Part shown: piece after piece, positions 25,213 through 62,219 of the stretch | Layout: each line of letters begins with the position of its first letter | How positions within the stretch are numbered: position 1 is the stretch's first letter | Assembly (NCBI RefSeq): GCF_013410945.1 | Contig: NZ_JACCCH010000001.1 | Span: forward strand, 558,001-622,000 | Direction: 5' to 3' | From: Leifsonia sp. AK011 | Lineage (GTDB): Bacteria > Actinomycetota > Actinomycetes > Actinomycetales > Microbacteriaceae | Length of the DNA stretch: 64,000 bases | Position numbers and translations under genes: made by a program | The notes under the pieces: generated by a model | What the model was told of the DNA's origin: nothing | Seen by the model: only the letters and a program-made list of their open reading frames with translations | Databases searched by the model: none

Positions 25213-25527
25213 ATGAGCCAGCCCACTCCCGTCGAACTTGCCTCGCTGCGCCAGAGCATCGACAACATCGATGCGGCACTCGTTCACCTGCTAGCGGAGC
25301 GGTTCAAGTTCACGCAGCAGGTTGGTGTGCTCAAAGCTGCTCGCGGGCTCCCGGCATCCGACCCCGATCGCGAGGCGATTCAGGTAGCACGGTTGCGGGC
25401 GCTCGCCGAGGAATCCCATCTCGATCCGGCTTTTGCGGAGAAGTTCCTCGGATTCATCGTCGCCGAGGTCATCCACCACCACGAGTCGATCGCGACGGGC
25501 GCCATCGCCGTCAGCGACGAGCAGTAG
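25213..25527 (+). CDS. Chorismate mutase (AroQ type)
   Basis: This 104-aa all-helical enzyme converts chorismate to prephenate for Phe and Tyr synthesis. AroQ residues are visible: the N-terminal helix LRQSIDNIDAALVHLLAERF with the Arg and Asp of the first helix, K in AARG, and the second half VARLRALAEESHLDPAFAEKFLGFIVAEVIHHHE. It is a free-standing catalytic domain without regulatory part. ATG 25213 has TAGATT exactly 6 bases upstream, and its TAG is the stop codon of the GNAT gene. It is convergent with the GGDEF-like gene. Confidence 0.92.
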   Translation: MSQPTPVELASLRQSIDNIDAALVHLLAERFKFTQQVGVLKAARGLPASDPDREAIQVARLRALAEESHLDPAFAEKFLGFIVAEVIHHHESIATGAIAVSDEQ

Positions 25528-25550: not shown

Positions 25551-26285
25551 CTACAGGCCAGCGATCAACTCGATCGCAGAGTCGTAGGTCGGGGGCATGA
25601 TCGCGGTCGACACCGTGACACTCTCCATGTCGTCGAGCGCGAGAAGTCGATGCCGGAGGCGGATCGCGTGCTCCTCGACGGTGGGTGCATGCACGACGCT
25701 CACGAACGTTCCGGTTTCGAGGATCGCGTTGGTCTGACCCGCGGCGAGCACCTCGGACAGCACGCGCGCGACCGCGCAGTTGCGGAGCACCCTGCGCCAG
25801 CCGGTGATCCGATCCCCCTCGATCGTGATGAGCCGCCAGGCATCGGATGCCGCGACCCCGGTCTCGCTCTGCTCCGCGTACATCTCCTTCAGCCGTGCCC
25901 CGAGGTATTCGCGGGTACGCAGTCCCGTGAGTGAATCGGTCGTTCCCGTGGCCAGGGCGGTGGTGGTGGCGATCTCTGTCCACTCCGTGGCGAACGCCCT
26001 GGCCACCGCGAACGGTGGCTCACCGGCATCCGCGGCCCGGTAGAGGGCGGCGAGGTCGAGGAGGCCCTCGGAGATGCCAACTCCGCGAGAGGCGCGGTCG
26101 GCTCCCAGAGCGCCGGCAGCTTCGTTCACACCCTCGCCCGCGAGGAGTGCCGTGACCATCGCGCCGACGGAGGTGCTGTACCAGTCGCCGGGGTGCAGCC
26201 AGCCATCCGCCAGTGCGACTGCCTGCCACTTGTCGGCGAGGAAAGGCGCACTGCCGGATGTGGCGGTGGTCTTGGGAACGTTCAT
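25551..26285 (-). CDS. Degenerate GGDEF-like cytoplasmic protein
   Basis: This 244-aa protein has no membrane segment. The N-terminal half (1-110) is an unrecognised helical region. At about residue 118 it has DSLTGLRTREYLGARLKEMY, which matches the opening of GGDEF diguanylate cyclase domains (DxLTGLxNRR). The catalytic GG[D/E]EF loop itself is missing: in its place the chain reads NAILETGTFVSVV. So it is probably a non-catalytic GGDEF relative that binds a nucleotide or protein. It is divergent from the membrane-tethered sigma gene and starts 4 bases after a long hairpin. No Shine-Dalgarno is visible. Confidence 0.6.
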   Translation of the reverse strand: MNVPKTTATSGSAPFLADKWQAVALADGWLHPGDWYSTSVGAMVTALLAGEGVNEAAGALGADRASRGVGISEGLLDLAALYRAADAGEPPFAVARAFATEWTEIATTTALATGTTDSLTGLRTREYLGARLKEMYAEQSETGVAASDAWRLITIEGDRITGWRRVLRNCAVARVLSEVLAAGQTNAILETGTFVSVVHAPTVEEHAIRLRHRLLALDDMESVTVSTAIMPPTYDSAIELIAGL

Positions 26286-26289
26286 CAGA

Positions 26290-26338
26290 AATGAGAGGGC
26301 AAAACCGCGTCATCATGACGCGATTTCTCCCTCTCATT
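26290..26338. promoter_or_regulatory. Nested perfect inverted repeat between the GGDEF-like gene and the sigma gene
   Basis: Outer arms AATGAGAGGG (26290-26299) and CCCTCTCATT (26329-26338), and inner arms CGCGTCA and TGACGCG (26306-26322) around a 3-base loop, are all perfect. The outer arm starts 5 bases before the GGDEF-like ATG. A separate 14-base perfect palindrome CACGCGCGCGCGTG follows at 26352-26365. Both fit operator or RNA-structure roles in the 172-base divergent spacer. Confidence 0.65.
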
Positions 26339-26457
26339 GTGTATAGAGGCACACGCGCGCGCGTGAACTCGACAATAATGATGGGGTTTCGCAAAGATTC
26401 GCGAGTCCTCAGCTCACAAAGCCCCTCAGAGCATGCCGGCAGAGGGCGGAGAACAAC

Positions 26458-28899
26458 ATGCACTCACCGCAGGTCGACCCACGAAGCGACGCCGAGCTGA
26501 TCGCCGCCGTGCGATCCGGCGACCCTTCGGCGTTCGGCGTGCTGTATGCCAGGCATGCACCGGCGGCCACCGCGATGGCTCGCTACTACTCGCGGGACGA
26601 CTTCACCGCAGACGACCTCGTGAGCGACGCCTTCGAGAAGACGTACTCCACCCTGCGAGCCGGGGGAGGCCCCGACGTCTCATTCCGCGCCTACGTCTAC
26701 ACCGCGATCCGCCGCCAGGCCTACGAGCTCACGGAGAAGGGCCGTCGCACCCAGGTCACCGACGACTTCACGCCTTTCGAGATGCCCGAGGAGATCAACG
26801 ACCCGGCCGTCGACACCTTCGAGAACCGCATGGTCACGACGGCATTCGCCGGCCTCCCCGAGCGCTGGCAGGCGGTGCTCTGGTACCTCGAGGTCGAGGG
26901 GATGCGCCCGCCGGAGGTTGCCGTGCTGCTCGGGCTCACCGCCAACGGAGTTTCGGCTCTCGCCTACCGTGCCAGGGAGGGACTGCGTGAGTCCTACCTT
27001 CAGGCGCACGTTTCATCGGACTCCCGCACGGCCGAGTGTGAGGCGCTTCGCCGCAAACTGGGTGCCTACGCCAATGGCTCGCTCGCCGCTCGTGAATCGG
27101 CGAAGGTCGAGAAGCACGTCGAGGAATGCGCCGAGTGCTCCGCGATCCTCGTCGAACTCCGGGACGTCGGGCATGGACTTCGGGTCATCATCGCGCCCCT
27201 CATCCTCGGTGGCGCCGCGACGGCGGGTCTCGTTGGTGGTGCGCAGGCGAGCCCGGCGACTGCGGCGGCACTTCCCGGTCGGGGTGTGCGCAACGGGTCG
27301 CGGGTCAGCCTGGCCGTCGGTGCGGCGCTGGCGATAGCCGTCGTGGCGGCTGTCGCGGTCGTGGCATCCATCGCGCTCGCCCCGAGTGAGGACTCGGCCC
27401 TGGAGCAGCCGGCCGCACCGGCTGAGAGCTCGGCCCCGCTGAGCCCGTCGACTGCGCCCACGGCAACCCCGACTCCCACGCCGACGCCGACGCCGGTTCC
27501 CTCCGCCCCGCCGACGCGCACCGCGCCTCCCACTCCGCCGCCGGTCAGCCCGCCTACGCAACCGACGAAGCCCACGCCCACTCCGACTCCGACGGTCACG
27601 CCGCCGCCTGCTCTCCCCGAGCTCGAGGTGGCGATGGACGACCTGGGCGCCCTGGTGCTCGGTCGAGACGGCATGCTCGGGGGGCGCGCCACCAACGTTG
27701 GTTCCGGAGAGGCGAAGCAGCTCGTCATGACGTTCCGCCTCCCGGCGGGAGTGGATCTCGATTCCGTGCGTTCCGTCCGGTCCTCGGGCGTCGACTGGGC
27801 GTGCTCCCAGTCGGGCACGGATGTCGCGTGCAAAGCTGCCACGCTCGCCGCCGGTTCCTCCTCCACCGTCTACATCCCCGTGACGGTCTCGACGGCCGCC
27901 GACGTCGTGGAGGTGCCCGCCGTCGAGGTGCGCGCGCACAACGTGGGGCCCGTGGCGGCTGCGGCACCCTGGCCGGTTCTCGACCGCGGCCTCGGTACTC
28001 GCTTCGTCGCGGATGGGGCGCTCGCGTCGACCTCGGTCGGGGCATCCTTCCTGACCTGCGATGTGAGCCTGCCGGGCTGCGCTGAAGCACTGGCGCGCGA
28101 GGGCGATAGTACGGCGTGGAACAACCAGCAGTGGAATCTCATCGCAGAAGACGCCGCGGGCACTGGTTCCGTCTCATCGAGCACCACCCTCACGATGCCG
28201 CAGGGTGCCGACGTGGCGTTCGCGGGGCTGTACTGGTCGGCACCAGAACCGGCCGGCGATACGGATGCGGCGATCGGGTCGCTCACTCTTCGCTCCCCGA
28301 GCGGCGACTCCTCGCCGATCACCGCGGCCCGGGTCGACCGCACCATCGTCTCCGGTGTCGACAGCTACCAGGCATTCGCCGACGTGACATCCATCGTCGC
28401 GGCGGGGGGAGCCGGTTCCTGGGCAGCGAGTGCCCCGCGCATCGGACCGGGTGCCAGCGCAGTTCCCCTCGATGTCGTGGGGAGTGGGGTGAGCGCCGGG
28501 TGGGCTCTCGTGGTCGTGTACGAGGACTCCTCCCTGAGCGCGGGCCGCGTTGCCGTCTTCGACGGCTTCGAGCCCGTGACGAGTTCCGACGTGTCGTTTG
28601 TCGTCGCGGGACTTCCCAATTCGCAGGTCACCGCGGGCGTTGTTGCGTGGGAGGGTGACGCCGGAACCGGTGGAGACAGCCTGTCACTCGACGGGGTGAC
28701 GCTGGCCCGGTCCGAGGCCGACGCCCCGGCCGACAACCACTTCTACTCCTACGCGGTGGGCTCCGCCGTGGCGAACACTTTCGGGGTCGATGTCGGGAGC
28801 TTCCTTCCCACTCCGCTTGCCTCTTCTCGGGCCACACTCTCCGCGTCGACAACGGGCGATCAGTACGCCATCGGAGTGGTCACGGTCACCACGCGATAG
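26458..28899 (+). CDS. Membrane-tethered ECF sigma factor with fused zinc anti-sigma domain and large outer domain
   Basis: This 813-aa protein is a mosaic. Residues 12-95: sigma-70 region 2 (DAELIAAVRSGDPSAFGVLYARHAPA). 115-180: region 4 helix-turn-helix (LPERWQAVLWYLEVEGMRPPEVA). 194-227: zinc anti-sigma (zf-HC2) motif with Cys194, His220, Cys224 and Cys227. Then a hydrophobic segment at 241-264 and a clear membrane helix at 284-307. 315-387: Pro/Thr-rich wall-spanning linker with repeated TPTP. 388-813: extracytoplasmic beta-rich domain with paired Cys, first part DUF11-like. The sigma domains are cytoplasmic, so the sigma factor is held at the membrane. Release or a conformational signal would be needed for promoter use. 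The ATG has GGAG 8 bases upstream. A hairpin terminator follows. Confidence 0.88.
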   Translation: MHSPQVDPRSDAELIAAVRSGDPSAFGVLYARHAPAATAMARYYSRDDFTADDLVSDAFEKTYSTLRAGGGPDVSFRAYVYTAIRRQAYELTEKGRRTQVTDDFTPFEMPEEINDPAVDTFENRMVTTAFAGLPERWQAVLWYLEVEGMRPPEVAVLLGLTANGVSALAYRAREGLRESYLQAHVSSDSRTAECEALRRKLGAYANGSLAARESAKVEKHVEECAECSAILVELRDVGHGLRVIIAPLILGGAATAGLVGGAQASPATAAALPGRGVRNGSRVSLAVGAALAIAVVAAVAVVASIALAPSEDSALEQPAAPAESSAPLSPSTAPTATPTPTPTPTPVPSAPPTRTAPPTPPPVSPPTQPTKPTPTPTPTVTPPPALPELEVAMDDLGALVLGRDGMLGGRATNVGSGEAKQLVMTFRLPAGVDLDSVRSVRSSGVDWACSQSGTDVACKAATLAAGSSSTVYIPVTVSTAADVVEVPAVEVRAHNVGPVAAAAPWPVLDRGLGTRFVADGALASTSVGASFLTCDVSLPGCAEALAREGDSTAWNNQQWNLIAEDAAGTGSVSSSTTLTMPQGADVAFAGLYWSAPEPAGDTDAAIGSLTLRSPSGDSSPITAARVDRTIVSGVDSYQAFADVTSIVAAGGAGSWAASAPRIGPGASAVPLDVVGSGVSAGWALVVVYEDSSLSAGRVAVFDGFEPVTSSDVSFVVAGLPNSQVTAGVVAWEGDAGTGGDSLSLDGVTLARSEADAPADNHFYSYAVGSAVANTFGVDVGSFLPTPLASSRATLSASTTGDQYAIGVVTVTTR

Positions 28900-28902
28900 A
28901 CG

Positions 28903-28929
28903 CCGAAAAACTTCTCGGAAGTTTTTCGG
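28903..28929. terminator. Hairpin terminator after the tethered sigma gene
   Basis: CCGAAAAACTT and AAGTTTTTCGG form a perfect 11-base-pair stem with a 5-base loop, starting 4 bases after the stop codon. It is AT-rich against this background. Confidence 0.75.
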
Positions 28930-29022
28930 TAAACCGCGTAATGGATCGCCCCCCGGGGGCTCTCATTCCCAGAGAGGGGGGTTTCGCCAGCGTCGAAGGT
29001 CGACGCGGTTGCCCCTGAGTCA

Positions 29023-29322
29023 ATGACCCTGACCGAGACGCTGCTCGCATGTGCGGCTATCCTCGCGTCACTCTCTGGCGCAATTCTTGCCTTCGTGTTG
29101 TGGCTGAAGCGACCCCGGTACCGCCGGACGAGACGCCTCGGCTCGCTCGAAGGCCATAGACCCTCCGCGCCGTTTGCCCTCTTTACCCGTCGTCCAGACG
29201 AGGGTTCCTCGTTGTCGGTTCGTCCCCCCAGATTATGGACCGACGCAAACGATGTTCCCGTTGCGGACGTTGAAGACGACACACGGGCGAGCGGCGCGGA
29301 GGCCACCCTTCACGGCACCTAG
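29023..29322 (+). CDS. Possible small membrane-anchored protein (99 aa)
   Basis: A 99-aa frame starts at ATG 29023 with a hydrophobic helix (LLACAAILASLSGAILAFVLWL), then a strongly basic stop-transfer stretch (KRPRYRRTRR) and a hydrophilic tail ending TLHGT. This is what a small anchored protein looks like, and the codon use is fair but less GC-biased at third positions than the neighbours. No Shine-Dalgarno or -10 was found. If it is not real, 28930-29330 is a roughly 400-base stretch without a gene. I know no family for it. Confidence 0.4.
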   Translation: MTLTETLLACAAILASLSGAILAFVLWLKRPRYRRTRRLGSLEGHRPSAPFALFTRRPDEGSSLSVRPPRLWTDANDVPVADVEDDTRASGAEATLHGT

Positions 29323-29330
29323 CAGAACGA

Positions 29331-29366
29331 AGAAAGCGGGCGCCCCCGAGAGGGTGCCCGCTTTCT
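29331..29366. terminator. Bidirectional hairpin terminator before the purL end
   Basis: AGAAAGCGGGC (29331-29341) and GCCCGCTTTCT (29356-29366) are perfect 11-base arms with extra inner pairing. It serves the convergent purL gene (minus) and whatever is transcribed from 29023. Confidence 0.8.
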
Positions 29367-62111: not shown

Positions 62112-62219
62112 GGTTGAGTAGCCGCGGCGCAGCCCGGCGTTATCGAAACCTCACCAACGTGGATCTTGTTGCACGTAGGTGAGGTTTCGATAACGGCCGC
62201 TTCGCGGGCCTACTCAACC
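62112..62219. repeat. Large palindromic repeat element B at convergent ends
   Basis: Left arm 62112-62155 (GGTTGAGTAGCC ... TATCGAAACCTCACC) and right arm 62178-62219 (GGTGAGGTTTCGATAA ... CCTACTCAACC) form a hairpin stem of over 35 pairs with gaps, the same words as element A. Between the 61447 gene and the PadR gene. A small extra hairpin ACTGTG-GGTT-CACAGT (62221-62236) follows at the padR stop. Confidence 0.78.

Follow-up and report, generated by a model that had tools for sequence, protein, structure and literature searches.

The spacer at 26286-26457 of the window (the 64,000-nucleotide stretch of Leifsonia sp. AK011 DNA analyzed here) is 172 bases long, separates a GGDEF-like gene on the minus strand from an ECF sigma factor gene on the plus strand, and contains a long inverted repeat. 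What is this hairpin for? An earlier note suggested that it could be an operator, an RNA switch on the GGDEF-like gene, or the target of the adjacent tethered sigma factor itself. Our results make it very probable that the hairpin is a symmetric divergent promoter read by the neighboring membrane-tethered ECF sigma factor.

The hairpin is real and lies far above chance. As the earlier note described, the outer arms AATGAGAGGG (26290-26299) and CCCTCTCATT (26329-26338) are perfect complements that enclose an inner complement, and the sequence inside them reads CGCGTCAT-C-ATGACGCG. Overall, the 49-bp dyad at 26290-26338, to which no strand is assigned, is a 24+1+24 inverted repeat in which 21 of the 24 pairs match, and two of the three mismatches become G.U when the dyad is read as minus-strand RNA. 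The "6-base bulges" reported previously do hold unpaired positions, but the stretch is aligned, with AAA and TTT pairing inside it. When matches are scored +1 and mismatches -2, the stem reaches 15, compared to best scores of 9-12 in each of ten order-1 Markov versions of the window; seven stems in the 64 kb, the dyad among them, score 11 or more. A longer inverted repeat with 26-base arms and a score of 20, GTTATCGAAACC...GGTTTCGATAAC, is located at 62138-62195. RNA folding of the dyad gives z values of -8.2 for the minus strand and -6.3 for the plus strand, neither of which is equaled by any of 200 shuffles. We also searched the genome for further copies of the outer arm, as had been proposed. 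A one-arm pattern with 4-8 free bases finds the dyad as its sole match and a looser pattern, allowing three mismatches, finds one further weak match, so that the full dyad is otherwise unique.

The GGDEF-like gene (25551..26285, minus strand) encodes a protein of 244 amino acids with a degenerate GGDEF motif, for which no Pfam or NCBIfam family is found at E 0.01. Its predicted model (pLDDT 80, pTM 0.52) appears to have a GGDEF-type fold, and a comparison with the PDB gives 35 matches with E no higher than 0.001, GGDEF proteins leading and the best match at E 9.4e-06. The GG(D/E)EF active-site motif itself is absent, being replaced, at a position assigned by eye, by ETGTF in the window and by RSGTI in G003, the only other one of 27 genomes of the genus to possess this gene. 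Given a GGDEF fold that lacks the GGDEF motif, the protein probably has a binding or regulatory role. The divergent gene (26458..28899, plus strand) encodes an ECF sigma factor with a fused, anti-sigma-like zf-HC2 zinc-finger domain; the chain further comprises a hydrophobic stretch, a linker rich in Pro and Thr, and an outer part that resembles DUF11. Sigma70_r2 and zf-HC2 score above the Pfam cut-off, and Sigma70_r4_2 (25.5 vs 25.7) and DUF11 (22.7 vs 24.6) fall just below theirs. In G003 the GGDEF-like/sigma pair occupies the same place, between purL and purA, and identity to the proteins of the window is 52% for the GGDEF-like protein and 63% for the sigma factor. A chorismate mutase gene (25213-25527, plus strand) lies between a GNAT gene and the GGDEF-like gene in the window, and the G003 locus (L009, 8359-8660) has no room for it.

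Both strands of the dyad carry one and the same ECF-type promoter motif, CGTCAT-N17-CTCTCA. The putative promoter directed towards the GGDEF-like gene (26292..26320, minus strand) has its -35 element CGTCAT at 26320-26315 and, after N17, its -10 element CTCTCA at 26297-26292; it fits the extended motif WWYCGCGTCATGR-N14-CCTCTCAT without a mismatch. This -10 element ends 6 bases before the start codon, the strand reading CGTCATG-N16-CTCTCA, then TTTCTG, and then the ATG. The transcript start is predicted at 26285, the A of the ATG, and the mRNA would hence be leaderless. The earlier note had placed the hairpin 5 bases before this start codon, where a ribosome site was to be expected; the distance is right (the stem begins 5 bases from the ATG), but no ribosome-binding site is seen there. 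On the plus strand, the putative promoter directed towards the sigma gene (26308..26336) has CGTCAT at 26308-26313, N17, and CTCTCA at 26331-26336, with one mismatch to the extended motif; this strand reads CGTCATC-N16-CTCTCA, and its transcript is predicted to start near 26343. The two -35 hexamers are thus one base apart at the center of the dyad (the extended -35 element being about WWYCGCGTCATGA), and its outer arms are the two -10 elements (CCTCTCAT). Because the -35 elements stand back to back, the mirror-image promoters resemble a stem. Even the leftover AAA/TTT symmetry matches the A/T-rich bases found before the -35 element at other sites of both genomes (WWY before CGCGTC).

Support for a promoter comes from homologous sigma genes, the upstream regions of which share the two-part motif CGTCATR-N16-GTCTCT. 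In 20 of 30 loci, the pattern CGTCA[TC]-N17-[CG]TCTC[AT] precedes the sigma match at a distance of no more than 300 bases; when the upstream stretch is read backwards, 0 of 30 contain it. Ten loci lack it: two (L033, L034) are not sigma homologues by tblastn, a third (L030) offers only 3 bases of upstream sequence, five (L035-L039) are second copies, none of which has the motif, L025 carries GTCTTT at the same spacing, and L032 is without the motif. One of the second copies, L035 (G000:C1:407798-408553), belongs to the genome under study and is another sigma factor of this type, 48% identical; without the motif upstream it presumably has another specificity. Taking the best sigma match in each genome, the motif is found in 20 of 25 genomes, or 18 of 23 when the window genome and G003 are set aside. 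Both dyad strands therefore match a motif that precedes homologous sigma genes in the other genomes as well as further genes of this one, which upholds the suggestion that the hairpin is the tethered sigma factor's own target. One two-part motif at fixed spacing precedes the sigma gene itself across relatives, as would be expected of an autoregulated ECF promoter. The core motif CGTCAT-N17-STCTCW has 138 matches in 27 genomes compared to 9 read backwards. This control takes no account of codon use, and conserved coding sequence contributes some of the 138 matches, with one such match recurring in several genomes. Over nine spacings, N17 accounts for 45 of 140 rows (hand count) in those seven of 12 genomes for which every row was listed, where about 16 would be expected if the spacings were even. 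In other genomes of the genus (L098:133-2232, minus strand; L105; L102) the motif precedes large exported proteins, that of L098 belonging to the choice-of-anchor G family (E 2.4e-70).

In the genome under study, the core motif gives eight rows: the two strands of the dyad, three sites located 40-50 bases before the starts of predicted exported proteins, and three sites inside reading frames, which are probably chance matches. The three candidate regulon genes encode a protein of at least 962 amino acids with an SdrD_B domain, a 366-residue protein in which an LPXTG-type anchor scores 16.9 bits against a cut-off of 15.9, and a 239-residue protein with weak, below-cut-off likeness to calcium-binding repeat proteins; G003 has counterparts of the first and the third. 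When up to two mismatches to the extended motif are allowed, there are six sites here (both dyad strands, a site at 28932, and the three before predicted surface-protein genes) and four in G003. With up to three mismatches the numbers are 10 and 6 rows, respectively, against 1 control row each. The site behind the sigma gene (28932..28966, plus strand), a third copy of the promoter motif, reads CGTAAT-N17-CTCTCA with two mismatches to the extended motif, and its likely product is a small predicted membrane protein of 99 amino acids (29023..29322, plus strand) for which no family was found. A similar start follows the counterpart of this site in G003. Judged by these matches, the motif is common to other genes of the genome, again as would be expected of an ECF promoter. 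Two terminator-like stems are present nearby, at 28903-28929 behind the sigma gene and at 29331-29366 between the sigma gene and purL.

A regulon matrix built from five sites outside the dyad ranks its minus strand first in the window (35.4), the 28932 site second (22.8; its G003 counterpart ranks first in the G003 locus), and the plus strand third (17.6), the next score being 12.0. Best scores in 20 Markov windows have a mean of 14.6 and a maximum of 19.3. The plus-strand (sigma) site is therefore the weaker one and, because 17.6 is above this mean but below this maximum, it is within chance by matrix score alone; what argues for it is its position before the sigma gene and its agreement with G003 (22.4), in which the dyad strands rank second and third in the locus. 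A second matrix, derived from 18 sigma promoters of other genomes, places the minus strand first only narrowly (11.2 vs 10.9, 10.9, and 10.9) and the plus strand fifth in the window (9.9). Because the core motif was used to pick the five regulon sites, their flanks alone are independent, and both the recurrence in the regulon and the matrix ranks are partly circular for the core bases.

Could the dyad instead be an operator, on which a dimeric DNA-binding repressor or activator controls both genes? Dyad symmetry, strong conservation, and a divergent gene pair are indeed typical operator traits. Halves in a single orientation, however, recur with -35/-10 spacing before the regulon and the homologous sigma genes, which would not be predicted for a factor that binds the dyad. 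In addition, the genome contains no further copy of the full dyad, and no classical regulator gene adjoins it in our reading of the neighbors. An operator is also not needed, because only about 4 of the 49 bases fall outside both promoter copies. We consider this suggestion of the earlier note quite unlikely to be correct, although another factor could bind the dyad additionally.

Conservation bears on the further possibility that the stem is an RNA element in the leader of the GGDEF-like mRNA, where it would block ribosome entry or end transcription. The single orthologous locus that we found, in G003, retains the hairpin, with 46 of the 49 dyad bases the same, even though the fourfold-degenerate sites of six neighboring genes are only 28-59% identical between the two species. 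At 59% per site, the value for the most conserved of these genes, the chance of so many matches is about 4e-8 (hand arithmetic, with sites taken as independent). Conservation had been proposed as a test of both palindromes in the spacer; the second one, discussed below, is kept in G003 only as ACGC....GCGT. Two of the three differences in the G003 dyad weaken the outer arm, and the third, in the inner stem, turns a G.U into a G-C pair on the minus strand, a change that would favor an RNA. No compensatory pair change is seen despite the heavily diverged neutral sites. Because the bases are kept to this degree while fourfold-degenerate sites are not, the stem is, on this comparison, held by its sequence and not by its pairing, and the proposed contrast of compensatory changes with base conservation comes out against an RNA. 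The -10 element on the GGDEF-like side is CTCTTC in G003, which is outside the motif pattern. The first 40 bases 3' of the stem align between the two species better than 1000 of 1000 shuffles; we had considered the rest of the spacer to be unrelated, and dropped this view when other gap costs aligned these bases.

More distant relatives separate the promoter motif from the dyad. Among 398 genomes of the family, four more (L005-L008) contain a GGDEF-like relative, and all four fetched loci include a sigma homologue, which is divergent in three of them. The GGDEF-like gene thus adjoins a sigma gene in 6 of the 6 genomes that have it, divergently in five. In L005 and L007, from two species of one other genus (g19), CGTCA-N-N17-TCTC is located 8-9 bases before the GGDEF-like ATG, with motif scores of 21.8 and 11.2. 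The match in L008 is weak (5.3) and differently spaced, and in L006, where the sigma gene is not divergent, the motif was not found before the GGDEF-like gene. A covariance model (R1) of the dyad, built from two sequences, finds only the two dyads in the genus, and in a scan with stricter filters none of the four distant genomes is among the ten that match the model. Since the g19 species keep the motif with no dyad detected, the promoter seems to be older than the dyad, the symmetry seemingly having been added in the line leading to the window species and G003. The dyad is known from these two species only. A protein scan of genome_contigs returned 126 pattern matches, none of them a relative, and scanning genome_contigs and viral_contigs with DNA patterns returned no match.

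These data leave little room for the RNA element. In its favor, the stem is highly stable on the minus strand (-33.8 kcal/mol), more so than on the plus strand. There is, however, no ribosome-binding site for the stem to hide, the terminator scan finds no T run behind it, and the g19 relatives retain the promoter motif at loci where the dyad was not found. No Rfam family reaches its gathering score in the window, the five matches at 26200-26500 being at chance level. Moreover, with a start predicted at the ATG, the stem would not be transcribed from the minus-strand promoter. The RNA switch of the earlier note is consequently very unlikely. We also looked for an upstream reading frame through the stem, and rejected it because no in-frame start exists for the frame with its stop at the GGDEF-like ATG. 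A bidirectional terminator or insulator, akin to long stems elsewhere in the family, is less probable still, to the point of being negligible. R1 does detect stems at E 0.001 or better in nine other genomes of the 398, most of them long and terminator-like, but their sequences are different; the stem studied here stands between divergent genes and not behind a gene, it is without a T run, and its conservation exceeds what a structure-only terminator needs.

The second palindrome, CACGCGCGCGCGTG, is present at 26352-26365 (plus strand) as reported previously, but 13 bases after the stem rather than 14. Counted from the predicted start of the sigma mRNA, it begins after about 9 bases, and it is a candidate 5'-terminal stem-loop of this mRNA. 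The first 40 bases of 20 predicted sigma leaders tend to form a stem-loop at this same place (mean z -1.75, 17 of 20 below -1), compared to a mean z of 0.01 for the next 40 bases, of which 2 of 20 are below -1. The CG palindrome may form a stem-loop at the 5' end of the sigma mRNA, although this is suggestive only, because many of the 20 leaders come from close relatives and the two exceptions in the next 40 bases are the window's genome and G003. In many members of the genus (L013-L031), the predicted sigma mRNAs open with such a stem-loop, GAAGG...CCTTC or a variant of it, which may be a leader element.

The motif, its spacing, its conservation, and its recurrence before homologous sigma genes and other genes are read directly from the DNA, and from them we infer how the symmetric divergent promoter might operate. 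Release from the fused anti-sigma part, by proteolysis as is expected for such fusions (PMC8999054), would free the membrane-tethered sigma factor. Together with RNA polymerase, the freed factor would bind CGTCAT-N17-CTCTCA in either orientation, the plus orientation giving sigma mRNA, and hence positive autoregulation, and the minus orientation giving the leaderless mRNA of the GGDEF-like partner. It would also transcribe the gene for the small membrane protein and the surface-protein genes. Given the shared -35 center and the outer -10 arms, polymerases on the two halves would overlap and one would exclude the other, as is shown for sigma-70 bidirectional promoters of other geometry (PMC12825309). 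It is a tentative and rather doubtful idea that the symmetry is itself a device, by which polymerase chooses the sigma gene or its GGDEF-like partner at each event; if the partner limits the sigma factor, such a site could act as a one-site switch with positive and negative feedback, and could split a population into cells with the surface coat on or off. More generally, a group of membrane-tethered ECF sigma factors gains a promoter code that can be put to the test and a link to predicted surface-protein genes, and the degenerate GGDEF-like protein beside the sigma gene is a candidate regulator. The locus illustrates how two mirror-image promoters, rather than RNA structure, can produce a striking hairpin, and palindrome scans should check for such promoters before an operator or riboswitch is named.

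How does this locus compare to known systems? Actinobacteria have fusions of a sigma factor with a zinc-finger anti-sigma domain and a membrane part (PMC8999054). The sigma protein resembles such autoregulated factors of groups ECF48, ECF52, and ECF53 in that a single chain joins a sigma domain, zf-HC2, an apparent membrane stretch, and an outer part rich in proline; the joint presence of sigma-70 region 2 and zf-HC2 is confirmed here by Pfam. This likeness is one of domains and assigns no numbered group. Unlike in ECF52, the outer part is DUF11-like and not a carbohydrate-binding module, no Pfam match to such a domain being found in the sigma protein at E 0.01. For the ECF52 member SCO4117, the motif 'CSGYN-17bps-SRHA' has been proposed and is present in one of the factor's own promoters (PMC5826349); it differs from CGTCAT-N17-CTCTCA. 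In contrast to the ECF48, ECF52, and ECF53 systems, the promoter here is symmetric and common to the sigma and GGDEF-like genes. We recognized no published description of a symmetric ECF promoter centered on the -35 element in the open-licence literature searched. A second parallel is provided by the bidirectional sigma-70 promoters of Warman, Grainger and co-workers, which have (PMC12825309, PMC10268837) a symmetric -10 element with starts usually 18 bp, or 10-23 bp, apart, and DNA symmetry that allows either orientation of polymerase, one excluding the other (PMC12825309). No sigma-70-type promoter was found at 26250-26500. The dyad shares with these promoters its symmetric DNA and the predicted mutual exclusion of polymerases, but its symmetry is about the -35 element, its predicted starts are some 58 bp apart, and the sigma factor predicted to read it is of the ECF type.
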